Assembly: GCA_024655885.1 (NCBI GenBank)
Contig: JANLFN010000006.1
Location: forward strand, 1 to 64,000
Source of the DNA: Eubacteriales bacterium
Lineage (GTDB): Bacteria; Bacillota; Clostridia; Acetivibrionales; JANLFN01
Length of the DNA: 64,000 nucleotides
Direction of reading: 5' to 3'
Shown here: positions 1,798 through 60,238 of the stretch, piece by piece
Position numbering within the stretch: position 1 is the first letter of the stretch
Layout of the letters: every line of letters starts with the position of its first letter
Made by a program: the position numbers and the translations under genes
The notes under the pieces: generated by a model
The model's database searches: none
Told to the model about the DNA's origin: nothing
What the model saw: only the letters and a program-made list of their open reading frames with translations

Positions 1798-1799
1798 TT

Positions 1800-2306: not shown

Positions 2307-2424
2307 GTTTGTCACCTCACTTCCTTGCTGCCTATATCCCCCTTTTGAAATCGCGACTTTTCGCGCGTGACCGCGCGCCCGCTCTCGGTGCTCGCCTTGG
2401 GAGGATTTCAGCCCCCCTTGCCGT

Positions 2425-2781
2425 CTATACCATGCCTCTATCCTTCAGACCCTTGACATCATCATGATACCTGCACAAGCTCTGCAGGTTGTTTATATCC
2501 AGGGCAGCGCCGCCTTCCTTGATAGGCACAATATGGTCTACAACCGTCGCAGGCGTTACCCTGCCTTCCCTTTCACAATGTTCGCATAAGGGATTTTGGC
2601 TGAGCTTCTTCTTTCTAAGCCGCTGCCATTCGGGTGAACTATAGAACCGTTTGCTGAACTCGTCCCTTTTGAAGCGGTTATATTTTTTATATTCCTCCCT
2701 GCGGTGCCAGCTGCAATACTGTCCGTCTGTCAGTTCCGGGCATCTGGGATAGCTGCATGGTCTATCAGGCTTCCTTGGCAT
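2425..2781 (-). CDS. HNH endonuclease (phage packaging-associated)
   Basis: 118 residues. An N-terminal Cys/His cluster (CSYPRC, then YCSWH) probably binds zinc. The HNH nuclease motif covers roughly residues 78-110: LCEHCEREG, VVDHIVPI, DINNL and LCRYHDDVK give the metal-binding cysteines and the H-N-H triad. Small HNH proteins upstream of P27 terminases are required with the terminase for packaging in several siphophages (for example HK97 gp74), and that role is likely here. The start overlaps the end of the preceding 40-residue gene by 17 nt, which suggests coupled translation. Confidence 0.88.
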   Translation of the reverse strand: MPRKPDRPCSYPRCPELTDGQYCSWHRREEYKKYNRFKRDEFSKRFYSSPEWQRLRKKKLSQNPLCEHCEREGRVTPATVVDHIVPIKEGGAALDINNLQSLCRYHDDVKGLKDRGMV

Positions 2782-2887
2782 CAGGCTTCACCAGCTTATT
2801 CTTATTTTTAAAACAAACAGGGAACATGCACAACACTTTACGGTGCGTAAGCCATGTCCCCCAAATGCAGCCTTTGCACTTGCACAT
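2765..2887 (-). CDS. Small Cys-rich phage protein, unknown function
   Basis: A 40-residue ORF starting MCKCKGCIWGTW and continuing KVLCMFPVC. The two Cys clusters suggest a small zinc-binding protein. The ATG at 2887 has a clean AGGAG 8 nt upstream, which is the main reason to call it real; a longer frame upstream to 2950 lacks such a site. It overlaps the HNH gene by 17 nt. A hairpin with a T-run lies directly upstream, so it is the first gene after a terminator-like element. Short phage proteins of this type are seen in other Firmicute prophages; no function is known to me. Confidence 0.6.
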   Translation of the reverse strand: MCKCKGCIWGTWLTHRKVLCMFPVCFKNKNKLVKPDAKEA

Positions 2888-2913
2888 ATATGTATCTCCT
2901 GTTTTTTGGCAAT

Positions 2914-2942
2914 AAAAAACTCCCGGCTGAAAAACCGAGAGT
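2914..2942 (-). terminator. Rho-independent terminator-like hairpin
   Basis: On the minus strand ACTCTCGG pairs with CCGGGAGT (7 of 8 pairs) and is followed by TTTTTT. It lies just before the small Cys-rich gene, so it may act as an attenuator or antitermination site for the phage late operon, or end a short leader transcript. Confidence 0.55.
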
Positions 2943-3000
2943 CCGTACATATTTTTCTACAGTTTAAATTTTAACACACATTTCCGCTCTTGTCACTGGA

Positions 3001-3068
3001 ACACTTACTGTCCATTTTCTGAACACTTACTTACCGTTTCCTTACCACTTACTTACCCCTGACTTACC
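3001..3068. repeat. Three-copy 22-bp-period repeat plus partial unit
   Basis: ACACTTACT at 3001, ACACTTACTTACC at 3023 and CCACTTACTTACC at 3045 are spaced exactly 22 bp (two helical turns), and a further ACTTACC occurs at 3062. The array lies upstream of the minus-strand late phage genes and downstream of the AIPR gene. It may be a binding array for the late regulator; it is too short and too variable for CRISPR. The rest of 2943-3169 shows no gene. Confidence 0.6.
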
Positions 3069-3169
3069 TTAAACTGACCGTTACCTGACCACCAAGATGA
3101 TTCGGTAATACGGGTTTGCTATGGTTGTACATTTTACTGATTTTGTATAATTTAAATATAATTATCTTA

Positions 3170-4867
3170 TTATTTATCTGTTGGTTGTTTCAAATGATTA
3201 ATTAAGTCTACACCTTTAGCTACTCTACTATTCCCACCTAATTCTTTATATATTTTATAGATATCCGAAGCGGTCTGTTTTATCAATTCATAGTCTATTA
3301 AACTAGTATCTAAGTCCTTTATATCGTTAGCAGAAATAATTTTTTTGCCTATCACATCAGAAACAACCTTATACATAACATAAAATAATATATCGCCTCT
3401 TTCAACTTTTGAATATTCTGTTAATAATTTTAAACATTTTTCAACTTGTTTACCAATGACAGCTATATTATAGAAAACTGTTAAGTTGTTATTATCAATA
3501 TATAACTTTTTATAATACTCATCATCTGTAAGTAAAGTTGACGGCCTTGCACGAGCATAATCAGGCATTTGAAGCAAAATAGCTATTAAACATTGAGCTA
3601 GAAATGATATACTTATAATATCTGATGATTTTTTCCCTTGATTTTTATAATAATTTTTACGCCTATCATAATAAAGCCCTCGACTTTTAAAAAACATTTC
3701 AATTTGCCTATGTATGGTATCAGTAGCGCGTAGCGAAGATTTAGGTATAGTAGTTTGACTATTTGTAGCTAATATTATTTTATCACGAGATTCCTCGGTT
3801 TCGGGAACTATAATCCTAACCAATACGTTTCTTTTTTCGGAGTTAATTCTGTTTGGATTGCATGAAAAATAATTATATATTTCTGTAGAAGTTTGCAATC
3901 CATTAACAATTTCAGGATCAGTAATAACAAGCATTTTCGCTGTTATTGGAATTACTTCAGATGCTAAAATAGTAATTCCGTTATTTAACCACCAAAAATC
4001 CTCTAGCGTTTCATTTACCAATGTTTCATGAATTTCATTATTAACATTGGTATTTCCTTGATAATCTCTAACATTAGATTCAAATATATTTTTAACTATA
4101 AAACCATTTTCATCAATAATAAATTTATAGTATTCTACTAAGTTTACTAATGCTATATAATCTTTTCCTGAGCCAACAGTAATTGGGTTTTCTATTAGAG
4201 GCAGATTATATTTTCGTTTTTTAGGCGTACTAATTAATTCCATAAGCATATCTGCACCAATAAACTTTACAATAACATTACTATTCGGATTTGGGAACAA
4301 TTTTTTAACATTCTTCTCCAATTCTTTTGCCTGCAACGATACATTTTGATGAATATCTATTCCTTTTGAAATATAAAGATAATTAATACTAAGCTTTAAA
4401 TCTTTTCTAATCGCTTTAATGTATAAATCTCTAAAAAGCTGAAATGATGTTAACACATCTTCGTTATACCTTCCTATAAAATCTGAAATACTATTACTCA
4501 TTTGAAGCAAATTATCTGATGTCGTTTTCCATTTCATAATAACATCTTCATTAAAAGATGTTGAGTTTTTAGCCTGTAAAATGAACATATCGATCTTTAT
4601 ATCCTTTGGTAATGTAGAACTCTCATAATCATCTTTATTGATTAATATCCCATTTACAAAAATATATATACCGTCACAACCTCCATCAAGACTAGCCCCT
4701 ATGATACCAGATTCGATTTCTTCATCACTTAAGTCATAATTTTTTAAAACTTGTCCTGCTACAAAGAACTCAAAAAACTGGTCAATATTATTATATGATT
4801 CATTCTCTTTAAACTCTTGATCTATATACTCTTCGAGTAGCACTTGATTATTACTTAAATTTCTCAT
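3170..4867 (-). CDS. AIPR-family abortive infection protein
   Basis: 565 residues. The central segment DFWWLNNGITILA followed by DPEIVNGLQTSTEIY is the hallmark of the AIPR family (abortive infection phage resistance, PF10592), proteins found in phage-defence and restriction loci. The N-terminus has GGCDGIYIFVNG (D65) and IDMFILQAKNS (Q98, K100), resembling a PD-(D/E)xK nuclease core, so a DNA- or RNA-cleaving activity is plausible; this is inference. The gene is strikingly AT-rich compared with the flanking phage genes and has its own long AT-rich flanks, consistent with a recently acquired moron inside the prophage. It probably protects the lysogen from other phages. Confidence 0.82.
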   Translation of the reverse strand: MRNLSNNQVLLEEYIDQEFKENESYNNIDQFFEFFVAGQVLKNYDLSDEEIESGIIGASLDGGCDGIYIFVNGILINKDDYESSTLPKDIKIDMFILQAKNSTSFNEDVIMKWKTTSDNLLQMSNSISDFIGRYNEDVLTSFQLFRDLYIKAIRKDLKLSINYLYISKGIDIHQNVSLQAKELEKNVKKLFPNPNSNVIVKFIGADMLMELISTPKKRKYNLPLIENPITVGSGKDYIALVNLVEYYKFIIDENGFIVKNIFESNVRDYQGNTNVNNEIHETLVNETLEDFWWLNNGITILASEVIPITAKMLVITDPEIVNGLQTSTEIYNYFSCNPNRINSEKRNVLVRIIVPETEESRDKIILATNSQTTIPKSSLRATDTIHRQIEMFFKSRGLYYDRRKNYYKNQGKKSSDIISISFLAQCLIAILLQMPDYARARPSTLLTDDEYYKKLYIDNNNLTVFYNIAVIGKQVEKCLKLLTEYSKVERGDILFYVMYKVVSDVIGKKIISANDIKDLDTSLIDYELIKQTASDIYKIYKELGGNSRVAKGVDLINHLKQPTDK

Positions 4868-5022
4868 AATGAAACCCCCAATTGAATTGTATTATTAACA
4901 ACTAAGTTTAAAGTGAAGCTTAGCTTCTAATTATAGATATTAATTCCATAATTTGAGAAACACTTCACAATTATTATATACCATAAAAGTAAACCTTTGT
5001 ATAGTAAAATAAAGCCGGCTTT

Positions 5023-5502
5023 CTATATTACAGACTTTGTAAGTTCAAACATTTCAACCAGCTTGCTTACAGCTTGTCTTCGGTACTTATTCAGCGTCTT
5101 TTCGCTGATGTAATGCTTTTTGCAAACATCCGCCCAGCTCATTCCCTGCAAATATATGTCCTTTATAACTTCTGATAATTTCCCTCCGAGCCGGTGTATG
5201 CAGTATTCCAGCTTCATAAGCTCATACTCGTTGGCGGTAATCATCTTTTCAAGCTCACGCTTCGAAGTCCGGTTTATACGTTCCGTCACTTCCCGGTATA
5301 CCAGGGCAATATTGCAGGTTTTATCCGAAACCCGTCCCGGATCCACCTTTTCGCCTTGAGGGGATGTATAATTTAAAGCATCTATGACTTCTTCGGGTTC
5401 AAGTTCCTGAAGACAGTTTAATTCAAACTTTAACTGTTCGACATCTTTGCGCAGTTCATGGTAATTTTTCAAAAGATACTCTACATATTCCTGGGTCTCC
5501 AC
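5023..5502 (-). CDS. ArpU/sigma-like phage late transcription regulator
   Basis: About 159 residues. The N-terminal half is a charged coiled coil (YVEYLLKNYHELRKDVEQL) and the C-terminus is a sigma-70 region 4-like helix-turn-helix (VIKDIYLQGMSWADVCKKH, then SEKTLNKYRRQAV). Proteins of this shape (ArpU, RinA, DUF1492) activate late gene transcription in Gram-positive phages. I choose the GTG at 5502, about 7 nt after GGGTGGTGG; an ATG seven codons upstream overlaps the VRR-NUC gene. The position between replication and packaging genes fits a late activator. Confidence 0.75.
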   Translation of the reverse strand: METQEYVEYLLKNYHELRKDVEQLKFELNCLQELEPEEVIDALNYTSPQGEKVDPGRVSDKTCNIALVYREVTERINRTSKRELEKMITANEYELMKLEYCIHRLGGKLSEVIKDIYLQGMSWADVCKKHYISEKTLNKYRRQAVSKLVEMFELTKSVI

Positions 5503-5519
5503 TACTAAACCACCACCCT

Positions 5520-5810
5520 TCAAGCCAGTGTTTTGAGCCTTTCCTGTACTTCACACAAGCTATGAGCCACAACCATAATTCCGCCAGCCCTCTCTATATC
5601 CCGAATCGTTATCTCCTGAAGCTTCGTCAATTTGCCTCCGGGCTTTTTTACCTCGATTCCAATAAACCTGCCTTGTAAGCATACGATAATGTCCGGCAAT
5701 CCGGCAGTGCCATACATCCCGCCATGCTCCTTCCAGGCAAAGCACCCGTCAAGGTTTTTCAAATATGCCAGTATTTCTTTCACAATTTTGCTTTCAGGCA
5801 TCCCAATCAC
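5520..5810 (-). CDS. VRR-NUC domain nuclease (phage)
   Basis: 96 residues making up a stand-alone VRR-NUC domain: GTAGLPDIIVCLQGRFIGIE followed by VKKPGGKLTKLQ gives the PD...(E)xK catalytic pattern, and IERAGGIMVVAHS completes the fold. Small VRR-NUC nucleases next to phage primase/helicase genes are thought to resolve branched DNA during phage replication or recombination. The length matches the family. It sits after the GTAAC-repeat region and overlaps the next gene slightly. Confidence 0.9.
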   Translation of the reverse strand: MIGMPESKIVKEILAYLKNLDGCFAWKEHGGMYGTAGLPDIIVCLQGRFIGIEVKKPGGKLTKLQEITIRDIERAGGIMVVAHSLCEVQERLKTLA

Positions 5811-6107
5811 ATCTCCGTTTTCGTTTGTTACCTTTTTTGAAGTGTTTCGTTACCTTTGTTTTAAACCCGTAAACCCTTGTCTTTACTGGCCTTCAATGCT
5901 TGTTACCATTGTTACCTGTTTTTTAGACATACCCCCAAGATATATAAACATATACGCGTATACACACGCGTGCGATGCTCTCTCGCGTACCTATCTAATT
6001 TTATAGTAACAAGGTAACAAACACATTTTAAATACCTCAATTCCTTGATATTGCCGTGTTTTATCTGTTACCCTATTTTAGTAACAGAAAAGTAACAAAG
6101 GTAACAG
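5811..6107. other. Candidate phage replication origin: GTAAC repeats and alternating purine-pyrimidine tract
   Basis: This 297-bp gene-free stretch has GTTACC at 5827, 5849, 5902, 5911 and 6067 and GTAAC, the same core reversed, near 6006, 6013, 6081, 6092 and 6100. Between the two sets lies a 27-nt strictly alternating purine-pyrimidine tract (5948-5974), prone to unwinding or Z-DNA. Iterons plus an easily melted tract directly beside a primase/ATPase gene suggest an origin or an operator for the replication genes. This is inference; no initiator protein has been matched to the repeats. Confidence 0.45.
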
Positions 6108-8696
6108 CTAATCCGCGGGAACATGTCCGCCTTTAAAAAACAGCTTATCCCGCACCGATTCAATATTCCCCACATCACAGTTTTTTGCCAATGCCTCAAA
6201 GTCCAAGATATAGACCTTTTTTACGCCATCTTCAAAGCGGACGTTTTTATAATCTCTGTAATACTCGGTATGCTTGAGCTGCCGGACAAACTGCCTGTAA
6301 TCAAGGCACTCATTTGTCAGTGCATGCTCTCTGCGGTACTTCGTGTACCGGTCATAAAAGCCTTTTACATCTATTGCAATTTCAGCCCCGCCGCTTATAA
6401 ACCTGTAATCGCTTTCCCCGTCAAGCCCCATCCTGTCAAAAATCTCAAAAGTCAAATCAACCACGCTTTTGTTGTAGGTACCGCCATCCAAGAGATACTC
6501 CTTTGCTCCACACTCAAGGGCCTGTTCGGCCTGCGACATGGTCATGCCCGAGACCTCCTCAAAGGTCAGCCCCATCTCCCGGCAAACCTCCTCAAACAGC
6601 CTTAAACCAACAACACAGCAGGCGAGATTGTTTGCCACTCTTGATGGGTAATCCTCCTCAAGCCTCCGGCTTGCTTCCTCATGCACCGCTTTGATTTTCG
6701 CCATATCAAATTTAAGCGCCTGGTTTAATAAGCTCCTCCCAAGGCGGCCAAGCACGCTGCCGCTCCGGGCTATGAGTGAAAACGCCTTGCGCCTTGCGGC
6801 GTCCTTCAAATCCTTTTTGTTAAACAAAAGCTCAATGCACCTTTCCCTGATGGCAGGCTCCGTCGGCGCTCCTTCTCCCACCAATACAATGGGCGCAGAT
6901 AATTTATACTGCATAACCGACAAGTCCGGCCGGCCACGCTGGCCATCATGTCCGTCATAAGCGTCACGCAGGTGGTTATACAGTGTCTCCAGCCTGTATT
7001 TGTCCATGGTGGAAGGCTTGAATTCGTCAAAAAGCTGCGGGACCAGGTTGCTGCTGGCCGAAGCCTTCATGACGGTAAATGGCGTCACCTTGGAAGCCCC
7101 CGAAGCAATGCCTGTAGAGAATATGGGGATGATAACCCTCTCCAGCGTATTGCTTTTACCGCTGCCCTGTTCACCGGTAAGCACAAGATGAGGGAATTTG
7201 ATATGCAGTGCCCTGAGTTTTTCTTTAAGAAAACACCCTGCGCAAAAGCCGATAATTGAAACCGTCTTTGCCGGTTCGTTATATTCAAACAACGCTGTGC
7301 CAATTTTCTGTAAGTCACTCTTGTCTGCAGTCGGAAATTCCAAAAGCTGCGTTTTAATTTCCCTCGTTTTCTTTAAAGATACGATGCCTTGAACCTCATT
7401 TCCAGCAGCATCAACGCTCCGGTCCTCTCCGACAAACACCCACCTGCCCTCAAACTCAAAGCAGCCTATTCCCCTGACTCCCTTCTTCCGCTGGCATTCC
7501 TGTTTTGAAATATGATTTTTCAAGAGCTCCAGATCACTTTCGGTGCCGGTATAGCAAAGAGACAGGGTGTTCTGGTTCAACACATTTTTGAACTTCTGCA
7601 GGTTGCCAAATTCAGTAGTGAGGAAAATCCTCTTAAAGCTTTCACCTCTATCGTTGACAACCTCGGCAGATACTTGCGCTTCCTCTTCAGCCTCAATGAT
7701 TTCAATGGGCCTGATGACAAAATTCGAAATGGCAAGCACGCTGCCGTCGCCCTTCAGCTTCAGGTACCTGCCATCCTTTTCGATAATGCTGCCTTTATCC
7801 TCAACGGGAGAGTAACAGTCGGCGGTGTTTTCCGCTGCCTTGGCCAGCACCTCTTCTCCGTAAGTCCTGCCATCGGCATAGTGTGCCTTGTCCCATTTCT
7901 CCCGGTAAAGCTTTGACTGCCTGAAAAGCCTGTCCATCTGCTCCCTGTTCCGTCCCGTCCAGAAGGCCAGATGCATGCACAAGGCCAAATCGGCCTCTGA
8001 CTGGGAGGCATACCTCTCCTGCCAGTTCCCCTCCCAGAGCAAGGCAAATTCATCGCCATTCTGTGCCGCCTTCGCCTTCTGCAGCACCACCTCATCGGAC
8101 AGTGGCGCTGAGACACCCTTTTTATCCCTTACTTTTAAGCTCTTCTTACGCTGGCCAAGGATGTACTTGCTGTGCACCTCCTGCAGAGCCTCTGTCCGTT
8201 CAGCCACCTCAGAGGGTGTACCGGGAAGCTGGTTGCCTGTCATGGTGAAATATCTTCCGCTTTCATACATTTCAACGCTGGTCCTGCTGTTTTTTCGGCC
8301 CGACTTGGGAAGTTCGCCTTTTACTATGATATGGATGCCTTTTCCCGAGGGGCTGATTTCCGTATAGGAAGAAAGCTTATCAACAATGTCCTGCGCTTCA
8401 GCTGTCAGTTCTCCTGTCTCTGGATTGCGGCAGTTGTCGATGTCCACTCCCACATAGCTATTCACCTTGCTGAACACAAAACCGAGACCGGAAAATCCGA
8501 ACTTCTCCATAGCTTTGACCGCCTGCTGGAAGCTGCCCCAGGTGGCCGGATTGTTGGACATGGCCTTCCTGCCGTTTACCGGATTGTATGGAATCTTGTC
8601 AGGCTTTTCCCCTTCACCCTTTGGCTCCAGCCTCCAACAAATCCAGCACTTCTGCTCTTTAAGCTCCTGCGGAAGCCGCTCAAGTTCCAGCTTCAT
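6108..8696 (-). CDS. Phage primase-polymerase/ATPase
   Basis: 862 residues. The N-terminal 180 residues look like an archaeo-eukaryotic primase (prim-pol) domain: YVGVDIDNC (D85 and D87, metal ligands) and SPSGKGIHIIVKG (H122). The C-terminal half carries a Walker A motif, LTGEQGSGKSNT (about residue 510), within a P-loop ATPase/helicase region, then an arginine-rich segment. Such primase-helicase fusions start phage DNA replication. It overlaps the DUF4406 gene by 4 nt (ATGA) and ends with TAG beside the GTAAC-repeat region. Confidence 0.85.
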   Translation of the reverse strand: MKLELERLPQELKEQKCWICWRLEPKGEGEKPDKIPYNPVNGRKAMSNNPATWGSFQQAVKAMEKFGFSGLGFVFSKVNSYVGVDIDNCRNPETGELTAEAQDIVDKLSSYTEISPSGKGIHIIVKGELPKSGRKNSRTSVEMYESGRYFTMTGNQLPGTPSEVAERTEALQEVHSKYILGQRKKSLKVRDKKGVSAPLSDEVVLQKAKAAQNGDEFALLWEGNWQERYASQSEADLALCMHLAFWTGRNREQMDRLFRQSKLYREKWDKAHYADGRTYGEEVLAKAAENTADCYSPVEDKGSIIEKDGRYLKLKGDGSVLAISNFVIRPIEIIEAEEEAQVSAEVVNDRGESFKRIFLTTEFGNLQKFKNVLNQNTLSLCYTGTESDLELLKNHISKQECQRKKGVRGIGCFEFEGRWVFVGEDRSVDAAGNEVQGIVSLKKTREIKTQLLEFPTADKSDLQKIGTALFEYNEPAKTVSIIGFCAGCFLKEKLRALHIKFPHLVLTGEQGSGKSNTLERVIIPIFSTGIASGASKVTPFTVMKASASSNLVPQLFDEFKPSTMDKYRLETLYNHLRDAYDGHDGQRGRPDLSVMQYKLSAPIVLVGEGAPTEPAIRERCIELLFNKKDLKDAARRKAFSLIARSGSVLGRLGRSLLNQALKFDMAKIKAVHEEASRRLEEDYPSRVANNLACCVVGLRLFEEVCREMGLTFEEVSGMTMSQAEQALECGAKEYLLDGGTYNKSVVDLTFEIFDRMGLDGESDYRFISGGAEIAIDVKGFYDRYTKYRREHALTNECLDYRQFVRQLKHTEYYRDYKNVRFEDGVKKVYILDFEALAKNCDVGNIESVRDKLFFKGGHVPAD

Positions 8697-9034
8697 GCAT
8701 CCACCCCCAGGGGCTCGCAGTGGCCATTGAAACGGCGTACTGTGATACCCATGGTTTTTGCTGCGGCAATCTCAACCTCCATGCCTTCTGATATCATTTC
8801 GCCAAAAACCCAAAGTTCATCGCACTTTGCAAGCAGTTGTATTCCCATTTCAATGCCTGCATTTCGCTCCTCCAAGACATTGTCATCCAGAAACTGCGTA
8901 AATATGGCATGAGGCGCAAGAGGAATTCCACCCTGTGTAAATACAAAGCGGCTGTAGCCGGTGGCCTTCCTAATGTTCCTCTCGATATCGCCCTTAAGCG
9001 GAGAGCAGACATATATGAACGGTCTTTTGTGCAT
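8693..9034 (-). CDS. DUF4406 nucleotide-binding-like phage protein
   Basis: 113 residues starting MHKRPFIYVCSPLKGDIERN. The pattern IYVCSPLKGD, LAPHAIFTQFLDD and CDELWVFGEMISEGM matches DUF4406, a Rossmann-like family related to nucleoside 2-deoxyribosyltransferases. The chemistry is not known for the phage members; nucleotide salvage or modification is a guess. I place the start at 9034, just after GGGAGGG, and not 19 codons upstream. It is coupled to the primase by a 4-nt overlap. Confidence 0.82.
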   Translation of the reverse strand: MHKRPFIYVCSPLKGDIERNIRKATGYSRFVFTQGGIPLAPHAIFTQFLDDNVLEERNAGIEMGIQLLAKCDELWVFGEMISEGMEVEIAAAKTMGITVRRFNGHCEPLGVDA

Positions 9035-9048
9035 ACCGGACCCTCCCT

Positions 9049-9720
9049 TCAGGCGCCAATTTGTTTGACTGAGATTTTGCTGTAATACCATTCCAGCAGC
9101 ATTTTTCGCTTGCCGTAGTCCGGCTCAGCCAGCAATAGCCCGATATCCGCCCTTTGCAGCTGCTCGATGGCCGATATCTGTTCTGCAGTAAGGTACGGCC
9201 TGATGGAGGATACCTTTCCCAGCCCGTTGGTTTCCCTGAATTTTTTAGCATCCATGCCAAGCACGACCCGGTTGATAAGGTTACATTCATTAGAAAAGTG
9301 ATAATGCTTGGGTTCCTCATGCACCTGCTTGATAGCCTGGGTAAACTCCGGGAACTCCATTCTGGCTGCCGCCAGAGATTTGATATACTGTTCCATTTCA
9401 TTAAACCTTTTAATATATGCTATTTTGAACTTCATAGCTTCGGCACCTGTAAAGCCCATAGCCAAAAGAGTAAAACCGTCTTTTGTCATCAGATACTCCG
9501 GATAGCATCTGTTCCTGCTATCCATGTAGGAGCTTTGAATAAAATTCTGTTCCCATTTAATCTCCTCAATTTTGAGGAGATCACCTTTGATGTTCTCAAT
9601 ATTCCTTAAGATATTGTCATGACGCTTGTTAAAAACCTCAGCCACCTTTCGGCTGCTGACTACCGGTATGCCATTTAACTCCGTAACGCCAAGAGTTACA
9701 TCTACTTTCAATGGTTTCAT
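9049..9720 (-). CDS. Rha-family phage regulatory protein
   Basis: 223 residues. The N-terminal 100 residues match the Rha domain: VTELNGIPVVSSRKVAEVF, HDNILRNIENIK and YLMTKDGFTLLAMGFTG, then an alpha-helical stretch YIKRFNEME. Rha proteins of phages and phage-like plasmids affect lysogeny; in phi80 and P22 relatives they interfere when IHF is absent. The C-terminal domain (about 120-223) is not recognised. The gene overlaps the DNA polymerase gene by 4 nt and belongs to the same operon. Confidence 0.85.
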   Translation of the reverse strand: MKPLKVDVTLGVTELNGIPVVSSRKVAEVFNKRHDNILRNIENIKGDLLKIEEIKWEQNFIQSSYMDSRNRCYPEYLMTKDGFTLLAMGFTGAEAMKFKIAYIKRFNEMEQYIKSLAAARMEFPEFTQAIKQVHEEPKHYHFSNECNLINRVVLGMDAKKFRETNGLGKVSSIRPYLTAEQISAIEQLQRADIGLLLAEPDYGKRKMLLEWYYSKISVKQIGA

Positions 9721-11666
9721 GAAAATACCTCCATTTCTTCCAATTCTCCAAACCTTGTTCCCACTGCTCCCTCTGCCTTTATCGGCACATCAAACTCTGG
9801 AAAGGGAACTGCCTCCATACAGGCCTTAATGAACTCAGCCGCCTCTGATACCTTATCCTCCTCCACCTCAAACAAAAGCTCATCGTGTATCTGCAGCAAG
9901 GGTTTGATGTACGGCCTCTCAGGCAAACCCTCAAGTATCCTCTGAAGCGCCAGCTTCAGAATATCGGCAGCTGTCCCCTGAATCGGAGTGTTAAGCGCGC
10001 ATCTTTCCCAATAGCTTTTTACACCCCAATCTTCACAGTTGATGCCTTTCAGGTACCTCCGCCTTCCCAGAGCTGTTTCCGCATATTTCCTGAGCGCCGC
10101 TCTGCGTTTGGTTTCCGCCTGCCAGCGCATAAGGCCCGGGTAGCCGTTTTTCAAATTTCTGATTATCTGTTCACATTCCTCAAGGGAAGCCTCCAGGCCG
10201 GCCTTAAACTTCAAGGTCCGCTGCAGCCCCCTGGGGAAAAGCCCGAAGAATACGCCGAAGTTGCAGTTCTTTGCAATGGTCCGCCGCTCCTTGTACTGTG
10301 TGGCTGCCTTATCCACCGCCTGCTCAAAGGGTATTTTGTAGATAACCGAGGTAGTCTGTGAATGGATGTCCCCGCCCGTTTGATAAGCCTCCAGCATCCT
10401 TTTGTCCCTGCAAAAGTATGCTCCCACGCGAAGCTCAATCTGAGAAAAGTCGAAATCCAGGAACTTATATCTCGGTCGTGCTATAAAGAAGTTCCTGACG
10501 CCAATAGGGTCGTTGTCCTTTCTGGGTGCGTTCTGCAGGTTTGGCTTCCTTGAGGCAAAACGTCCTGTGTCCGTCCCCAGCGGGAATAAATCGGGATGAA
10601 TCCGTCCCGTCGCCTCGTTGATATGCTGCAGGTAACCATCAACATATGTGCTCTTGATTTTGCCCCATTTACGGTATTCCTGAATCAGTTCAAAGAATTG
10701 CACCAGTTCTGGATTATGTCCGGCGCACCATTCCTTCAAAAGCACCATGGCTTCATCATCTGCCGCCTCTGCAAACTTGGCAGTGGTTTTTACCACCGGC
10801 AGCTTCATCTCCTCGTAAATAAACCGCTTGAACTCATCTGTTGCCGCATTGGCGCCAATATCAAGCTCTCTTCCCGCCACATCACAAATTTGTCTTCTAA
10901 GCTCTGAAAGCTTCTGTTCAGCTTCCCGCTTTTTCTGCTCCATCAGATTTCGGTCAACAGCAACCCCGTTATATTTCATGATTCCAGTATAAACTGCGGT
11001 GGGGCTTTCGATTTCTTCACATATGAAGCGATGCTTTGGAAGAAACCGGTCAAACCACTCGTTAAACCTGTAATACAGCCTAAGAGCAAAATCTGAGTCC
11101 GCACAGGCATAACGTACTGTTTCATAATCCTCCGGATTCAGCTCATCAAAGTGCTTTCCTTCCGTAACTTCGCTGAATGTAGGAAGCTCCACATTGAAAA
11201 GCGCTGGCACCAGTGTCTTCAAGCCGCAGTCCTTAAGCTCCCTGAAGCCCATTTCTTCCTTTAGAGTAAGCTGCGCGGCCGCAATGGTATCATAGACCGG
11301 CGGCAATATCATAACTCCGTACTTATACAGAAACATCGCCTCGAAGCTCAGGTTGTGCGCCACCTTGATCATCTGCCTGTTTTGAAAGATTTCCTTTGAA
11401 AGGAAAAGCATGATGCCGCCGATATCCTCTGCGTTTTTGCTTATCTGATGAAGCAACGGAACATATATGCCTGTTTCAGGCGATATACTCAAAGAAATAC
11501 CTGTAATATCCGCCTTGTGCGGGTCAAGGGCAGCGTCCTTTACTCCACGCCATTCCTCTATGGGCGAAGTCTCAAAGTCGAATGCAACCACCTTGGTTTC
11601 TCCCTCCAGCAGAGGCTTCAGGTATTCTTTTAAGTCAGTCAACGTTGTTGCAAGCTCATACGCCAT
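9717..11666 (-). CDS. Phage family-A DNA polymerase
   Basis: 649 residues with an N-terminal 3'-5' exonuclease domain (FDFETSP, D30 and E32) and a C-terminal polymerase I domain. Polymerase motifs are all present: A, DFDFSQIELRVG (about 405); B, RRTIAKNCNFGVFFG (about 470); C, LLQIHDELLFEV (about 590). There is no 5' nuclease domain, as usual for phage versions. It replicates the phage genome. The ATG at 11666 follows AAAGGAGG. The gene is in the early operon between the Cys-cluster protein and the Rha gene. Confidence 0.95.
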   Translation of the reverse strand: MAYELATTLTDLKEYLKPLLEGETKVVAFDFETSPIEEWRGVKDAALDPHKADITGISLSISPETGIYVPLLHQISKNAEDIGGIMLFLSKEIFQNRQMIKVAHNLSFEAMFLYKYGVMILPPVYDTIAAAQLTLKEEMGFRELKDCGLKTLVPALFNVELPTFSEVTEGKHFDELNPEDYETVRYACADSDFALRLYYRFNEWFDRFLPKHRFICEEIESPTAVYTGIMKYNGVAVDRNLMEQKKREAEQKLSELRRQICDVAGRELDIGANAATDEFKRFIYEEMKLPVVKTTAKFAEAADDEAMVLLKEWCAGHNPELVQFFELIQEYRKWGKIKSTYVDGYLQHINEATGRIHPDLFPLGTDTGRFASRKPNLQNAPRKDNDPIGVRNFFIARPRYKFLDFDFSQIELRVGAYFCRDKRMLEAYQTGGDIHSQTTSVIYKIPFEQAVDKAATQYKERRTIAKNCNFGVFFGLFPRGLQRTLKFKAGLEASLEECEQIIRNLKNGYPGLMRWQAETKRRAALRKYAETALGRRRYLKGINCEDWGVKSYWERCALNTPIQGTAADILKLALQRILEGLPERPYIKPLLQIHDELLFEVEEDKVSEAAEFIKACMEAVPFPEFDVPIKAEGAVGTRFGELEEMEVFS

Positions 11667-11729
11667 TTACTGACCTCCTTTGCCGGAAGCATCCGGGGGC
11701 AGGCAACCCGCCCCCGGCAACCCTTTTAC

Positions 11730-12482
11730 TTAAAGAGGAAGCGCCTCTTCCTCAGCTTCTTTGACCTCTTCCACCGTATCCACTTCAGTAATGGCAAGCC
11801 TTCTTGTAACCGGCTTTATTCTTTCAGAGAATTCCCTCATGGCCTTAACTGCCGCAGGATCAAGGTCTGCCACAACTGCAAACTGCGCCTGGCTGTACTG
11901 GATGCCTGTACTGCTTACCGCCTTTTTAAGCGTGACCTTGGTCAGCACGCCATAGGAGCGTTTGCCCTTTGAAACCACGCGCTTGCCGAGATAATCCGCA
12001 AAGGCCTTGATGCTGGTGGGAGGCAGCGTCAGAAGAATTGGAATCAGTTCACCGCTTCTTAAGAGATATACGCGGTGCATATTTTTGCAGGCCTTGCCTG
12101 AACCGTCACCCCCGCTACCAAACTGGTTATATGGACAGGAGGAACACTTGCCGCCCGGGTTTCCCTCTCCGTTTTTTCCGTCCATGGAGGAACAATCCGG
12201 AGGGGTATTCTGTCCGTTGAACTTCTCCTGCCAGTAAGCATTCAACGCATGATGATCTGCAATAACGCCGATAATCTCCTTGAGCATATCCGGCGAGTCC
12301 GGGTCCTCACCCGGCACCTCGAAGGCAAGCCCCCCGCCTGCAGGAATCTTCGCCCTGTCAAAGGTAATTGGAAGGCCATCCATTTCGTTTTCCATCGCCT
12401 CCGCGATTTCCCCGTCAAGGTTGGGAAGCACAAAGCCTCCGTTTGCTACTGTTATTGCCTTTTCTTTTTTGTTGCTTTTCAT
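11730..12482 (-). CDS. Phage replication-module protein with four-Cys cluster, unknown
   Basis: 250 residues. The mid-region has DCSSMDGK, GKCSSCPYNQFGSG and GKACKNMHRVYLL, a four-cysteine cluster that could bind zinc or an Fe-S cluster, followed by ELIPILLTLPPTSIKAF and a mixed region. The C-terminus is acidic (DTVEEVKEAEEEALPL), reminiscent of the acidic tails of single-strand DNA-binding proteins. Its place directly upstream of the DNA polymerase suggests a role in replication, possibly ssDNA binding. I do not recognise the family with certainty. Confidence 0.6.
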   Translation of the reverse strand: MKSNKKEKAITVANGGFVLPNLDGEIAEAMENEMDGLPITFDRAKIPAGGGLAFEVPGEDPDSPDMLKEIIGVIADHHALNAYWQEKFNGQNTPPDCSSMDGKNGEGNPGGKCSSCPYNQFGSGGDGSGKACKNMHRVYLLRSGELIPILLTLPPTSIKAFADYLGKRVVSKGKRSYGVLTKVTLKKAVSSTGIQYSQAQFAVVADLDPAAVKAMREFSERIKPVTRRLAITEVDTVEEVKEAEEEALPL

Positions 12483-12503
12483 AATTAATCAAGCTCCTTT
12501 CCT

Positions 12504-12914
12504 TTATTTCGCCTTCCTCAAGGCGACTGTCGTTTTTTCAAACACATTTACCAAGCCTTTGAGCCATTCCGGCAACTCGCCGTCGTTGGCTTCTATCTGC
12601 TCCTTTGTAAAGGCAGACAGGCTGTTTGCATTGACCGTCTCATAAATCAATGAACCATATCCGTTCTGCCTCAATGCCTCATGCAGTTGTTCCCTGCTGT
12701 CCCCTACTGCCGATGCGTAGGTTTTGGTGGTCAGGTAAAACAGGGTACCCGACCGGTTGAAGGATTGCGTTTCCTCATTGACCATCAGCTCCGCAAGCTT
12801 TAGCTCCACCTGCTCAAGCTCCGCATTGATGGCCTTGAGCGCCTCCTCGGTTTCCTTCTTGCTCTCTTTAAGGCTCTTTAACCTGTCCGCCAGTTCAAAC
12901 ATCTCATTTTGCAT
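12504..12914 (-). CDS. Coiled-coil phage protein, unknown
   Basis: 136 residues. Residues 1-45 form a charged coiled coil (LKSLKESKKETEEALKAIN). The rest includes FNRSGTLFYLTTKTYASAV and YGSLIYETVNANSL. It is placed between the helicase C-terminal fragment (5 nt away) and the Cys-cluster protein, so it is an early operon gene. Similar small proteins accompany phage helicases; function not known. Confidence 0.7.
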   Translation of the reverse strand: MQNEMFELADRLKSLKESKKETEEALKAINAELEQVELKLAELMVNEETQSFNRSGTLFYLTTKTYASAVGDSREQLHEALRQNGYGSLIYETVNANSLSAFTKEQIEANDGELPEWLKGLVNVFEKTTVALRKAK

Positions 12915-12919
12915 AGCCC

Positions 12920-14209
12920 TTACCTCCTGAAAAAAGTACGCCAGTTATCAACCAGCAGCTTTGCAACATCCTCCTTGCGCTGCAGGGCTTTTAAAACCTT
13001 TTCATCAATCGTGCCCTTGGCAACCAGATGAATGTATGTGCAGGTATTTCGCTGGCCGATTCTGTGGATGCGCGCCCGGGCCTGTGAGTAATTTGCATAG
13101 TTGAAATCCAGGCTGTAAAACACCGCTGTACTGGCAGCTGTGAGTGTCAAGCCAAGCCCGGTCGTCTGTATCTGTCCCACAAACACCCTGACTTCAGGGT
13201 TTTCCTGAAACTCCCGCACCTGCTCTGACCGGTTCTTGACCTCGCCGGATATCACCGAATGCTTGATGCCCTTTCTCTCAAGTAGTTTACATATAGCCTC
13301 AATCTCAGGGACGAACCTTGCAAAAATGACCAGCTTATTGCCCTCTCCCAGCACATCCTCGATGATTTCCTCGAGAGCCACAAGCTTTGCCTTCGACACC
13401 TGCTGCACAGGTCCGCCTTCGTCATCCCGGATAAAGCCGCCCGTCACCTGCTGCAAGCGGAGCAGCTGCGTGAGGATGTTCCTCACAACCACCTCGCCCT
13501 TGAGCAGTTCCGCATAGGAGGCCGCTTCCAGACTTTCGTAAATCTTCATTCCCTGCGGGTCAAGAGTCACATACCTCGTTTCATCCACCATCTCCGGCAA
13601 ATCCAGCGCTTCCTCCTTGGTTATCCGGTAAGCCACCGAGTGCGCCTTCCGCACCAGCTCCGGCAGGTTTTTATACCCGACAATCTGATGGTTGCCATAG
13701 CCGCCCATAGTGGCATACCTGGAACGGAAAGCGTAATAGCTTGAGCCGAAGATGCTCTCGTCCAGCACCTTGTACTGGCTGAAGAAGTCAAGCGGGTTGT
13801 TCTGGATTGGCGTTCCCGTAAGAATCAGCCTGTATTTTGCTAACTTTGCCAACCGGTGCAGGGCCTTCGACTGCTTGGCGTTTGGGTTTTTGATTCGACT
13901 GGATTCATCGCAGACTATCACATCCGGCTTCCATTTCCGCAATTCCTCCTCCAGCCGCCAGGCGCTTTCGTAATTCAGCACCACCACCTGTAGACCTGTT
14001 CCCGTCATGTGCCTTAGAGTATCGGCCTTTTTACCGCTGTCTCCCTCCAGTACTGCCAATACATAGTCGAAGGCCGCGAACTTCTCGAATTCCTCTGCCC
14101 AGACATTTGCCACCGACAGCGGTGCTACAATAAGCACTCGGCGAATAAGACTATTTAAAAATGCCTTGCCAATCAAAGCGATTGTGGTAAGGGTTTTGCC
14201 GGTACCTGG
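12920..14209 (-). pseudogene. SNF2/DEAD-type phage helicase, C-terminal part of split gene
   Basis: Carries most motifs of an SF2/SNF2 ATPase: PGTGKTLTTIA (motif I, 14209-14177), VLIVAPLSVANVW (Ia), VIVCDESSRIKN (II), LILTGTPIQNN (III), FVGQIQTTGLGLTL (V) and RIHRIGQRN (VI). The first usable start codon, TTG at 14176, lies after the P-loop, and a TAG stands directly before PGTGKT, so the ATP-binding loop is not included unless a non-standard start or readthrough is used. The N-terminal portion lies at 14659-15003, separated by an HNH gene. A normal protein of this family reads ...LLMEMGTGKT...; here three codons (TAG CCA GGT) are inserted. Probably inactive as it stands, or assembled from two chains. 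Confidence 0.75.
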
Positions 14210-44868: not shown

Positions 44869-46764
44869 TTAATTTTGCTCCTTGAGCATTAAATAGGCGG
44901 TGGATACCATTTCCTGGCTTTTCCCTGTTATTTTCTCATTAACGGCAGATATGTTTTCAATGTCATGATTCAGAAGGCCTGCCCTGGCCTCCAATTCACC
45001 GGCTATTTTTATCACTTCTTCAATATTGTTCAGCAGTTCCAGTTCATCCTTTTTTGTGGACTGGGCCGTCACCTTGGACTGTTCGGCCAGTTTCTTCACC
45101 TCGTCCGCCACCACCGAGAAGCCCCGTCCGCTCTCACCGGCACGTGCCGCCTCTATGGCTGCGTTCAGCGACAAAAGGTTGGTCTGGTCGGAGATGCTCA
45201 CGATTTCGCCGGTCACCCTGTTATAGTTTTTAACGCTCTGCTGGATGGCATCGATTCTCTCCTTCAAGCTGGAAGATATTTTAGCCAGTACGTCCGCAGC
45301 CCGGCTTACGCTGACGGCATTGTTGGCGTTTTGGGCTATCCCCGCCGCAACCTCCTCGATGGCCCCGGTTATTTCGGATATCCTCTTTTTCAAAAGCTCC
45401 AGCTTCTTTTCCTTGTCGTTGCTCATTTTTTCCACTTCTTCCAGCAGCTTTGACACTTCGCTGTTTTTTACCTCAAGAATGTCTCTTTCTGCCGAAAGCT
45501 TCGAATTATAATCAATGCAGTTTTCAATGTGGTTTATCCCATTAAATATGGATTTGGCCATAAGCCTGCATGTGGTGTATCCGCAGGCATGGCAGTTCCT
45601 CTTCCTGGATTCTTCGGTGTCCTTGTGCATGCGGATGAAAATGCGGTCTAATTCCTCCTGGGACGGCTCTTTAAACTCCTCAACCTTCTCTGCCGTATAC
45701 TCCCTTAAAAAATCCTTCAGGGAAAGGGTCTTGTCAAAGAATTTCAGCAGCTTTTCGGGTTTCGATTTAAGCTTGCCGGTCTGCCTGTTTCGAAAGCTGT
45801 ATGTCTGGTACTCAATATCGGTAATGTCCGCATTCTTGCACGTGGCCGAGCCGTAATTGCACCCGTGTTCACAGCTTAAAATATCCACCAGCAAAGGCAG
45901 GGGTTTGCCTTCTTCCTTTCGCCTGCTGTACTCATTAAGATATTCATAGGCCAGTTTGGTCCCTTCAGTCTGCTTTACCCAAGCGGACTTGTGATAATGA
46001 TATACATTTTCCTTAAGTCCGCCGGGCAGGCTGTATATGTCGCCCAACCCGCAGGATATCACCTTAAAGTCGGCTTCGCCGTATGAGTCAAGGTCTATTC
46101 CACCGGCATCAATATACTCCATCAGTTTCTTGAAAGTCACATTGTAGCTTACCAATCCCGAAGTATTCGTGTCGTTTATTTCGGATATTTTGGCAATACA
46201 GGGGGAAAGAAAGCAAATTTCATCCGTATTGTTCAAATACTTTTTAATATATATTGCCATACACATCATAGGGCTGTGGACAGGTGACAGATTGGGCAAG
46301 ATCTCGTGCCGGTATTTTTGCACATAATTTACTATGGCCGGGCAGGGCTGCGCAATCACCGAATCCAGGCCGTATTCCCTGATTGCCTTTAAATAGGCCC
46401 AGGTAGTTATATCCGCCCCGTATGAAACATCATAGATTTCAGTGACCCCCATGTGTTTTAACAGTCCCAATATTTTCTTATAATTTGGAAAGTTGGTTTT
46501 AAAAGCAGGGCCCGCAATAATAGATATTTTCACGCCATTTTTTATATCCTGAAAAAACCTTCCGGTATCATCCATAAAGTCACGGGCGCCGTGGTCGCAC
46601 ACCTCCAAGCATCTGCCGCACATAATACATTTTTTCGGATCCACCTGCGTTTTACTTCTGCCGTTCTCAACATAGGATACATTCGCATCCACGATAGGAC
46701 AGTCATATATGCACTTGTTGCAGCCTACACAAATCTCTTTTTTAGTAAATACAACCGAATCCAT
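44869..46764 (-). CDS. [FeFe]-hydrogenase-like sensor fused to a methyl-accepting signalling domain
   Basis: 631 residues, no membrane segment. Two [4Fe-4S] ferredoxin motifs (C12-C22, C46-C56) precede an [FeFe]-hydrogenase H-domain. All four H-cluster cysteines can be placed: C141 (QPCPAI), C189 (LSPCIAK), C298 and C302 (LSCEHGC). The proton-shuttle cysteine of TSCCP is proline here, and a further Fe-S domain (C391, C394, C399, C416) follows. The C-terminus is an MCP hairpin ([20 protein letters not shown]). I infer a soluble chemoreceptor that senses hydrogen or redox state. The ATG at 46764 follows GGGGG. Family members lacking that cysteine have low activity. Confidence 0.85.
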
Positions 46765-47047
46765 GTCAATCGTCCCCCTTCCTTCAAAAAGCAATAGATC
46801 ATCCGGCCGCTTCAACCCCAGCGCCGGAATGAAATGAATATTTTGTCTAAAAATGAAATTCTATGTATTTATTCTAACACATTCAGTCATATGCCGCAAT
46901 GAAAAATTGACCGCATAAAAAGCATTATTTTGAGTTGCATGTCCTTAAACCGGAATAAAAATTAAATATATTTGAGGCTGATTATGTATGAATTTTGAAA
47001 CAATAAATGAGTGGCCAGGAAAATAAAATCCAAAGGAAAACTCAAGA

Positions 47048-47087
47048 GGCGGTTTCCTTGACTTTCCTGGAAGTCATGGAAACCGCC
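47048..47087 (-). terminator. Long hairpin terminator after pyk
   Basis: GGCGGTTTCC (47048-47057) pairs with GGAAACCGCC (47078-47087), and TGACTT with AAGTCA inside, giving about 16 base pairs with one interruption. It lies just after the pyk stop. Confidence 0.75.
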
Positions 47088-47109: not shown

Positions 47110-48861
47110 CTATACCCTTGTAGCCCCGTAATACACAATCCCCCTGTCGGCGTCAATGGTGACCACCGTGCCGCTTTTTAAAATCTGCATGGCGTTTTCC
47201 GCACCGACGATTACAGGGATTTCTAGTGCCAGGCCTACGATGGCGGCATGGTTCCCTATGCCCCCTTCTTCTACAATCAGGGCGGACGCCCGTTTTATAT
47301 AAGGAAGCATGTCGTTGTCGGTATGGGGTGCCACCAGGATGTTATTTTCCTCAAATTTCAATTTGGCTTCCTCCGGTGAACTTACAACACACAGCTCTCC
47401 CGTTACCGAACCGGTGCCGATACCTGTCCCGCGCACAAGCACTTTTCCCACCACATGAACCTTCAAGATATTTGTGGTGCCGCTGATGCCTATGGGCACC
47501 CCTGCCGTGATAACCACCAGATCCCCGTTTTTGACAAGTCCCGTTTCAAGCGCCTTTTCCACACCCATGTCAAACATTTCATCAGTAGTGGACACTTCCT
47601 TAACAAGAAAGGGCAGCACTCCCCAGGACAGAAATAATTGACGTTGAACCCTGGGATCGACGGTTGTCGCAATGATGGGGCAGGCGGGCCTGAACCTGGA
47701 AATCATCCGTGCCGTATGCCCGGACTGGGTTACGGTTATTATGGCGGAAGCGTTCAGGTCAAGGGCTGTGGTGCAGGTGGCATGGCTGATGGCATTGGTA
47801 ACGCTGGGTATCATATCGAACTTCATGCTGGAAAACTCTTTCCAGTAATCAATGGAATTCTCCGCCTTCTCCGCGATCTTGGCCATAGTCTCCAGGCTTT
47901 CCACAGGATATTTGCCCGCAGCCGTCTCACCGGACAGCATAATTGCGCTGGTGCCGTCATAGATTGCATTGGCGACATCACTGGCCTCAGCCCTGGTTGG
48001 CCTGGGGTTCCTGATCATGGAATCCAGCATCTGAGTGGCTGTTATCACGGGTTTGCCTCCCCTGAAGCACTTTTGTATAATGTTTTTCTGCACAACGGGA
48101 ACTTCTTCTACCGGGATCTCCACCCCCAGATCTCCCCGCGCCACCATGATTCCATCCGCCACCTTGATGATTTCATCAAAGTTTTGAATTCCTTCCCTGT
48201 TTTCGATTTTCGCAATCACCTTGATTCCCTGACCGCCGTAATTTTCAAGTATCTTTTTGATCTCCATCACATCGGCGGCCTTTCTCACAAAGGAAGCGGC
48301 AATCAGGTCAAACTCGTTTTCTATGCCGAATTGAATATCCTCAATATCCTTTTCGGTCAGCGAAGGCAGGTGTATTTCCGCTCCCGGCACATTAATGCCC
48401 TTGTTGTCTCCTATGACTCCCCCGTTCAAAACGGTACAGTCTATATCCCTATCCTTTATTTCATTTACAACAAGCTCCACCAGCCCGTCATTAATCAGAA
48501 TCCTGCTTCCCACCCTCACATCCTTGTATAAATTCTTGTACGTCACCGACACGATTTTGTCATTGCCCAGCAAGTCCCTGCAGCTCAGAGTAAAGCTTTC
48601 ACCCTGCCTAAGCTCCACCTGGTGGGTTTCGAATTTCCCTGTGCGGATCTCCGGGCCTCTGGTGTCAAGAAGGAGAGGGACGGGGCGCCCTACCCTGTCT
48701 CTTACTTTTTTAAAGGCGTCAACCCTCCGTTTATGTTCTTCATGGCTTCCGTGGGAAAAGTTGATGCGTGCTACGTCCATTCCTTTTTGGAACAGCTTTG
48801 CCAATATATTTTCATCATCCACTGCCGGGCCCAGTGTGCAGACGATTTTTGTTTTTCTCAT
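47110..48861 (-). CDS. pyk: Pyruvate kinase with C-terminal PEP-utiliser-like domain
   Basis: 583 residues. The A/B domains carry RKTKIVCTLGPAV, ARINFSHGSHEEH, LLLDTRGPEIRTG and the MVARGDLGVEIP active-site stretch; the C domain follows, then an extra ~100-residue domain (SVTGELCVVSSPEEA, EEGGIGNHAAIVGLALEIP) related to the mobile phosphohistidine domain of PEP-utilising enzymes. That extra domain is typical of Bacillus and Clostridium enzymes; its histidine is retained (GNHA). It makes pyruvate and ATP from PEP and ADP in glycolysis. The gene is not with pfk here. Confidence 0.97.
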   Translation of the reverse strand: MRKTKIVCTLGPAVDDENILAKLFQKGMDVARINFSHGSHEEHKRRVDAFKKVRDRVGRPVPLLLDTRGPEIRTGKFETHQVELRQGESFTLSCRDLLGNDKIVSVTYKNLYKDVRVGSRILINDGLVELVVNEIKDRDIDCTVLNGGVIGDNKGINVPGAEIHLPSLTEKDIEDIQFGIENEFDLIAASFVRKAADVMEIKKILENYGGQGIKVIAKIENREGIQNFDEIIKVADGIMVARGDLGVEIPVEEVPVVQKNIIQKCFRGGKPVITATQMLDSMIRNPRPTRAEASDVANAIYDGTSAIMLSGETAAGKYPVESLETMAKIAEKAENSIDYWKEFSSMKFDMIPSVTNAISHATCTTALDLNASAIITVTQSGHTARMISRFRPACPIIATTVDPRVQRQLFLSWGVLPFLVKEVSTTDEMFDMGVEKALETGLVKNGDLVVITAGVPIGISGTTNILKVHVVGKVLVRGTGIGTGSVTGELCVVSSPEEAKLKFEENNILVAPHTDNDMLPYIKRASALIVEEGGIGNHAAIVGLALEIPVIVGAENAMQILKSGTVVTIDADRGIVYYGATRV

Positions 48862-58324: not shown

Positions 58325-59974
58325 CTAAATTTGTTTCATAGCCTCTATACCTTTGAAGTATACCATTTTCGACGCGTCCAGTCCACATTCGATGATCCCT
58401 GGACTCCCCAGTTTCGATATACCAACAAATTTGTATAATGAACCGTCCAGTCCCCTGAATTTCGCTTTTTGGTTAACCCTGACGGACGGATCCTCCAGAA
58501 TGGGAAGAAAATCTTTTACATGGGTTGCTTTTTCAAGCCTGAACTCATATCCTAAAAGTTTTTCGTCGGTGCTGAGCTGTATTCTTCCATTTTCATCTGT
58601 CACATGGATCTCGCTCAGGCCCGTGTCTTCCGCTATTTTACGCAAATCCTCATTGGTAAGCTGCTTATCCCGGAGCATGACTGCAACAGCATCCGCAACA
58701 CCAAGCATCTGTTCTCCGATGATTCCGTCAAATTTCTCCATCACGTTTTCAAGATTCTGGGAAAGGGTAAGCAGGTTATTGGAAAATTCGGTATTTTTCC
58801 TGATACTTTCCAGCTGCTGCTCCATCACGGCCGCCACCTCCTGCAGAGCGGAGCTGCTGGCCTGTCCTTTGCCGGCCACCTCTGAAGTGTTATTGGAAAT
58901 GATCCCTGTGATCTTCGACTGTCTGTTGACATCTTCCGAAATGCCCGCCATAATATCAACCACAGATTGGACCATGGGAATGATCTTTCCCAGGCATTCT
59001 CCCGCCTTGGCCGCCACTTCTGCGCCCACGCCCACCTCGTTATTTACCTTTCTCATTACAATAACCGCACTCTGCGTCTCATCCTGCACCGATTGGATGA
59101 GTTCTTTGATCTTTCCGGCCGCTTGATTGGTCTCATCCGCAAGTTTTCTGACCTGATCCGCCACCACCGCAAAACCTCTTCCGTGCTCGCCTGCCCGTGC
59201 AGATTCTATGGCCGCATTCAGCGCCAGCAGGTTGGTTTGCTCCGATATGGCCGAGATGGTACTGGCAATATAGCCTATCTCATTGGATACCGTCTCAAGC
59301 TTTTCCATCACTTTTGACGATTCCGCAACATCGTTCTCAATCTGTCTCATGGATTCAGTGACCCGGTTTACCGCATCCCCTCCCTCCTGTATCATACTGC
59401 TGGTTTCATTCACCTTTTGGGAGGCTTTTGAGCTGCTGTCGGCAATGGACCGGCTGTCCTGGGTAAGCTGCTTCGTTTCATCGGCAACCTCCATAAACTT
59501 TGCGGTTGTCTCTTCTATAAACTGCTTGATATTGCCCAAATTCCCCGTCAATTCCACCATTCCGTCCTCTGCTTTCTTGGAGGATTTGCTGATGCGCCTC
59601 GAAGAGGTTTTAATGGAAACCGACGACCGCAGCAGTTCATAAATCCAGTCATTAATCATATTCCGGAGTGCCTCGAAATATTCCTTTATCTCTTTCACAT
59701 ACCCGTTTTTTACCGTGGGGTTGAACTCTGCAATAAAATTTCCCCTGCTAAATTCCCACAGGTTCCTCTTTATTTCTTCAATCAACTTTATATAGCTCCT
59801 GAAGACCATAAAAATTGAAACACCTATCATCACCAGGAATAAAGCCGAAAAAAGCACAAGAGCTAATGCCGTATTCCATTTCACCGTTGATGAGAAAAAA
59901 TAAAATGCGAATAGCAAGCACATACTTTCTAAATAAATAAAAACAGTGAGCCCCGCTATTATAGATTTTTTCAT
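58325..59974 (-). CDS. Methyl-accepting chemotaxis protein with C-terminal sensor-like domain
   Basis: 549 residues. Two close N-terminal transmembrane helices (about 8-25 and 31-50) leave almost no outside loop, so there is no external sensor. A HAMP-like stretch and a coiled coil follow; the signalling hairpin is [20 protein letters not shown]. After it, about residues 430-549, comes an extra domain ([38 protein letters not shown]) that resembles a small ligand-sensing fold. So sensing is probably cytoplasmic and after the hairpin. The ATG at 59974 follows GGAGGAG. Confidence 0.9.
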
Positions 59975-60238
59975 AACAACTCCTCCACTCAATTTAATCT
60001 ATAAAGATTTTTATTTCAGCCATAAAGGAATCTATGGGTAATCAGTCAGGAGCTAAGCATAAAACGATTGTTGTCGGTAAAGTTTGCTTTTGCACAAACT
60101 TTTTAAGGACAATCAATATTTTACCACTTACTTTATAATAAATTATTTTAGCGGCCTGATTTTTTTATTATATTCGAGTGTATATCACTTATTTGTATTT
60201 TATTTTTAAGTAAGAAAGGTGCCCAATATACTTAGATA

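Follow-up and report, generated by a model that had tools for sequence, protein, structure and literature searches.

Can a hydrogenase-like protein that carries the signaling domain of a chemoreceptor report H2, or the redox state of the cell, to the chemotaxis machinery? This question is raised by a gene on the reverse strand (44869..46764) of the 64,000-nucleotide stretch of DNA that we analyzed (the window; Eubacteriales bacterium assembly GCA_024655885.1, contig JANLFN010000006.1), for which an earlier note had proposed a soluble receptor built on an [FeFe] hydrogenase domain.

Domain organization and genomic setting of the receptor

The open reading frame extends from an ATG at 46764 to a stop codon ending at 44869, and encodes 631 residues plus the stop; a TTG at 46815, 5′ of this ATG, is also open, and the starts of relatives align with the ATG at 46764. 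The receptor matches, in order, Fer4_10 (residues 8–56), Fe_hyd_lg_C (PF02906; residues 94–305; 108.7 bits, E 5e-31, cut-off 22.1), PF04060 (residues 388–417), and MCPsignal (PF00015; residues 502–604; 93.6 bits, cut-off 34.6), with all Pfam matches exceeding the curated cut-offs. Ferredoxin clusters, H-domain, extra Fe-S domain, and MCP (methyl-accepting chemotaxis protein) signaling hairpin are therefore all found in one chain, as the earlier note had described. NCBIfam hydrogenase models match with scores well under the cut-offs, as would be expected of a relative that has diverged. The highest Kyte-Doolittle mean in any 19-residue window is only 1.1, which indicates that the receptor has no transmembrane segment and confirms the reading of a protein without membrane segments.

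Two [4Fe-4S] ferredoxin sites occupy residues 8–60 (C12, C15, C18, C22 and C46, C49, C52, C56; 46585..46743, reverse strand; PF13237/PF12838); seven of these eight cysteines are invariant among 36 aligned relatives, and C18 is nearly so. The [FeFe] hydrogenase H-domain covers residues about 77–311 (45832..46536, reverse strand) and is followed by a C-terminal four-cysteine FeS domain (C391-x2-C394-x4-C399-x16-C416; 45514..45603, reverse strand; PF04060), with spacing equal to that of the Cx2Cx4Cx16C motif of group C/D sensory hydrogenases (PMC8163306); this motif is present in all 39 MCP-bearing relatives tested. The anatomy, backed by sequence and by a structural model, supports a soluble, cytoplasmic chemoreceptor of the kind that HydDB calls group C2.

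The gene is flanked by pyk (47110–48861, upstream), proA/proB, and small open reading frames, and is not part of a hydrogenase operon. A strong hairpin plus T-rich tail follows pyk (47036..47087, reverse strand; read by eye, the loop being too long for the terminator scan), which makes a separate transcript for the receptor gene probable. Consensus promoters show no excess over shuffled sequences. There is no shared gene neighborhood, as the flanks differ among all genomes examined. Elsewhere in the window, a run at 499–14176 (reverse strand) contains phage- or element-like replication genes, judged by eye from their translations: a ParB-like methyltransferase, a primase-like ATPase, a family A DNA polymerase, and a SNF2-type helicase.

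The H-cluster pocket

In a phmmer search of PDB sequences, residues 44–273 align with HydA1 of 8a6t (E 4e-17) with the L1 and L2 motifs in register. The AlphaFold2 model of the receptor has a mean pLDDT of 87.4, with most of the sensor half above 90, and its top Foldseek matches are all [FeFe] hydrogenases, the first being CbA5H (8zqd; E 5e-18, 433 columns). These matches locate the receptor cysteines where the H-cluster would be, and so a placement outside the H-cluster, which the earlier note had named as grounds for rejecting its proposal, is not what we find. As that note also stated, all four H-cluster cysteines are kept: C141, C189, C298, and C302, which correspond to C300, C355, C499, and C503 in CpI numbering and are invariant in the alignment of 36 relatives. 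They are evidence for a [4Fe-4S] cubane site rather than for a loaded diiron site, which corrects the weight given to them. Since the four cysteines alone indicate just the cubane, as in apo-hydrogenases, diiron loading of the receptor is something that we infer. Sequence and model together support binding of at least the [4Fe-4S] cubane by the H-domain.

The residues around the cubane follow a fixed pattern in the 45 relatives that share the L1 motif. In L1 (Q139-P140-C141; 46342..46350, reverse strand), Pro occupies the position of the proton-transfer cysteine C299 and is followed by the cubane ligand C300; Pro and Cys are present in 45/45 and Gln in 44/45 sequences, which bears out the claim that the proton-transfer cysteine is replaced by Pro. 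In L2 (S187-P-C189-I-A-K192-I-S-E195; 46180..46206, reverse strand), M353 is replaced by Ser (44/45), and C355, K358 (44/45), and E361 (45/45) are kept; the count of 45/45 for C355 reflects a residue that was part of the search pattern, although this cysteine is independently invariant in the 36-relative alignment. In L3 (L296-S-C298-E-H-G-C302-N-Y-G305; 45850..45879, reverse strand), M497 is replaced by Leu, and this Leu and both cysteines occur in 45/45. Glu is absent at the positions of E279 and E282 in the clade members displayed, and S319 is kept. Judged from these alignments, the group A proton path (C299, E279, E282) is lost in the clade, and the invariant Pro after Gln at L1 is specific to it. 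The constancy of the pocket residues over 45 relatives argues that the pocket is maintained rather than decaying.

The comparison drawn in the earlier note with low-activity sensory hydrogenases holds in that characterized sensory enzymes also do without Cys299, but not for the residue that replaces it, as TmHydS has Ala rather than Pro (PMC10055695). TmHydS of T. maritima (group C, M2f) resembles the receptor in its two [4Fe-4S] clusters, H-domain, Cx2Cx4Cx16C motif, and loss of the proton-transfer cysteine (PMC8163306, PMC10055695), but has a PAS rather than an MCP output, with Ala at C299, Gly at M353, and Ser at M497. TamHydS of T. mathranii (group D, M2e) shares the cluster layout, the replacement of M353 by Ser and of M497 by Leu, and the loss of the proton path (PMC8163306); unlike the receptor it has no MCP or PAS domain, and it is reported to be encoded upstream of a bifurcating hydrogenase, whereas the receptor gene stands alone. 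TamHydS is active with H2 in vitro (PMC8163306). A different L1 was observed in five group A hydrogenases (L001–L004 and L130), which have TSCSPGW, with Ser at the cubane ligand C300 and the proton-transfer cysteine kept; the one paper checked gives no explanation of this motif.

Relatives, outputs, and coupling to the hairpin

A paralog in the same genome (C57:150218-152107) is 60% identical to the receptor. Further relatives come from named genome contigs (13, from Lachnospiraceae and Eubacterium-like Clostridia), from ten genomes of the order, and from 18 of the 391 class-level genomes; in plasmid records there is one distant match only, inside a chromosome-sized record. In a maximum likelihood tree of the H-domain (unrooted, with group labels that we assigned from architecture), the 45 sequences with the L1 motif form a single branch with 100/100 support, apart from the group A, group B, PAS-type (TmHydS type), and C3-type members of the same genomes. 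The sensor-half architecture and a Q/P-P-C motif are common to all 45. Many genomes contain this fusion, which was seen in 39 MCP members in all; a chance fusion or an assembly artifact is thereby ruled out.

The outputs of the clade are mostly MCP domains, with histidine kinases in four members (L071, L074, L084, L093) and a GGDEF-EAL fusion of 871 residues in Roseburia sp. 1XD42-69 (L162; G431:C237), possibly a redox or H2 input to cyclic-di-GMP. These outputs within one clade indicate that output has been swapped several times on one sensor. HydDB has listed [FeFe] group C2 as ‘Chemotactic (putative)’ since 2016, with the role given as ‘undetermined’ and H2 sensing via MCPs proposed (PMC5037454); rumen data place C2 genes in Clostridia (PMC10811737), and such genes have been counted in surveys (PMC11406978, PMC10811737) and discarded from curated sets (PMC9431212). 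Like group C2, the receptor connects a group C-like H-domain with an MCP output. Group C2 is described as an MCP association, whereas in the receptor the MCP is fused, and we infer its identity with the C2 reference set; the fused kinase and GGDEF-EAL outputs cut across this output-based naming. Two further domain combinations were seen. L154 (911 residues; G207:C8:620000-627000) joins a hydrogenase-like sensor to PAS, a sigma-54 activator, and a DNA-binding domain, and is a candidate one-component H2/redox transcription regulator. A 654-residue protein (L022/L026; G000:C62, about 259150-261120) has two MCP signaling domains in tandem and adjoins a 497-residue open frame with three tandem CheW domains.

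The signaling helix and MCP hairpin of the receptor comprise residues 417–631 (44872..45516, reverse strand; PF00015). In the model, one long helix (residues 417–630 by DSSP) is predicted to begin immediately past the last cluster cysteine, C416; as the MCP part is modeled as a single continuous helix, the hairpin assignment rests on homology. The hairpin tip, which is the region of CheA/CheW contact (45118..45183, reverse strand; near-invariant columns T528–F549), is intact, and its CheA/CheW binding is predicted to be normal. The hairpin extends 87 residues past the tip (short class; an arm of about 12 heptads), compared with about 154–200 residues (about 22 heptads) in the longer MCPs of this genome. 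Methylation-like decamers lie at residues 466 and 613, about 73 residues before and after the tip, and are absent from many relatives. The last cluster cysteine and the tip Glu lie 87, 122, 126, 128, 129, or 178 residues apart in the 39 MCP members, and 87, 122, 129, and 178, which account for 27 of the 39 proteins, all leave a remainder of 3 modulo 7; the receptor, at 128, falls in a subgroup that departs from this majority heptad phase by one residue. The shared phase may reflect heptad-phased coupling, with common ancestry reducing the counts to a handful of independent events. A second MCP in the window (58325–59992, reverse strand; 555 residues) has an extra domain of about 120 residues C-terminal of its hairpin, an unusual position for a possible sensor.

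Maturation, candidate mechanism, and competing explanations

The genome encodes all three maturases, HydG (C39:165930), HydE (C39:167390), and HydF (C23:39555), so that the absence of HydEFG, also named in the earlier note as evidence that would count against it, does not apply; it further encodes four group A hydrogenases and one C3-like protein. The che genes that were to be looked for are present as complete sets: CheA, CheW, CheB, CheC, CheD, and CheR are encoded over three chemosensory clusters, one of which (CheA, CheW, CheB, CheC, CheD) is beside flagellar-type genes. CheW domains occur in 25/25 genomes with the sensor.

In a HydEFG-positive cell, a diiron site would be loaded into the H-domain, which would react slowly with intracellular H2 given the loss of the usual proton path. 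The sensor half would then change in redox state or conformation in response to H2 or reduced ferredoxin, and its state would be passed on at the junction of C416 and the helix by rotating a dimeric coiled coil or altering its stability. Because the C-terminal cluster of TamHydS gave no response to H2 (PMC13104023), a conformational signal is a better guess than an electron relay. The change in the coiled coil would in turn alter the activity of CheA within a short array that is probably cytoplasmic, and movement would be biased by the cell's own level of H2 or reductant. We consider the chances evenly balanced that this mechanism, taken as a whole, describes an H2- or redox-sensing receptor acting through the chemotaxis machinery. 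The internal H2 or redox receptor feeding into chemotaxis that the earlier note suggested thus stands in part: domains and fold make the protein soluble, receptor-like, and hydrogenase-derived, H2 sensing is no more than plausible, and the output would be to flagellar taxis or to one of the other two chemosensory systems. Still more tentative, and in our view unlikely in its full form, is a dedicated cytoplasmic H2-taxis receptor that is loaded with the H-cluster, lacks the conventional proton path, is heptad-registered to a short array, and represents a module swapped onto MCP, histidine kinase, and cyclic-di-GMP outputs; such a receptor would allow clostridia to navigate by H2 of their own making.

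The receptor might instead bind a [4Fe-4S] cluster without diiron and read ferredoxin or the cytoplasmic redox poise rather than H2. The cubane itself requires all four cysteines, so that their retention does not by itself indicate diiron, and the Q-P-C of the clade is unlike L1 in the characterized sensory enzymes covered by the literature found. HydG is also not enriched with the sensor across the class (11 of 18 carriers, compared with 241 of 391 genomes overall), and five genomes that are at least 99% complete (G223, G251, G362, G407, G423) have the sensor but no HydG match over the cut-off. However, these same five genomes encode ordinary group A/B [FeFe] hydrogenases, in which CO/CN may be supplied in another way or a divergent maturase may act; all 18 of the 18 sensor-bearing genomes checked (a count of carriers only) have a group A or B hydrogenase, including those without HydG. 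Acetogens are likewise known that have hydrogenases yet no recognizable HydG (PMC9431212). HydG co-occurrence therefore fails as a proxy for the diiron site, and the HydG counts are silent on it. The diiron pocket (K358, E361, the Pro231 region, Ser353), fixed in 45/45 or 44/45 relatives, argues for more than a cubane, and we regard the cubane-only receptor as somewhat improbable. A further alternative is a slow metabolic hydrogenase with an incidental coiled-coil tail, which would account for a fold and accessory clusters that are those of hydrogenases; given the lost proton path, the MCP tip intact across the family, the regulatory outputs of the members examined, and a gene outside any hydrogenase operon, we consider this very improbable.

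A different question is whether the same sensor, through its short hairpin, serves another chemosensory system that controls a process other than swimming. Array height is usually matched among member receptors, and the hairpin is roughly half as long as those of the longer MCPs; there are two CheA clusters besides the flagellar-type one, and the fusion of the sensor to kinases and GGDEF-EAL elsewhere indicates an input that is not tied to taxis. Against this, the genome encodes at least four other short soluble MCPs of equal hairpin length, three of which (285–293 residues) differ from the receptor in having a small N-terminal sensor domain without cysteine clusters; in one genome (G049) about 5 kb separate the sensor gene from a CheA-CheW-CheC-CheD-sigma cluster; and the hairpin tip is intact. 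We hold a non-flagellar output to be doubtful.

The class to which the receptor belongs is widespread and already has a name, given on the basis of sequence; in the literature searched, we found no experimental study of any group C2 protein and no report of hydrogen taxis via hydrogenase-domain receptors. Nor did we find in that literature a description of the invariant Q-P-C pocket, of several kinds of output in one clade, or of the phased linker. The fixed pocket and phased helix provide a concrete, testable handle, and natural output swapping makes chimeric reporters practical. We regard the receptor as a good candidate for sensing hydrogen or redox state inside the cell and directing swimming accordingly; if it does sense H2, it would explain how fermenting clostridia move according to internal H2 or reductant pressure, and would bear on their syntrophy with H2-consuming partners.
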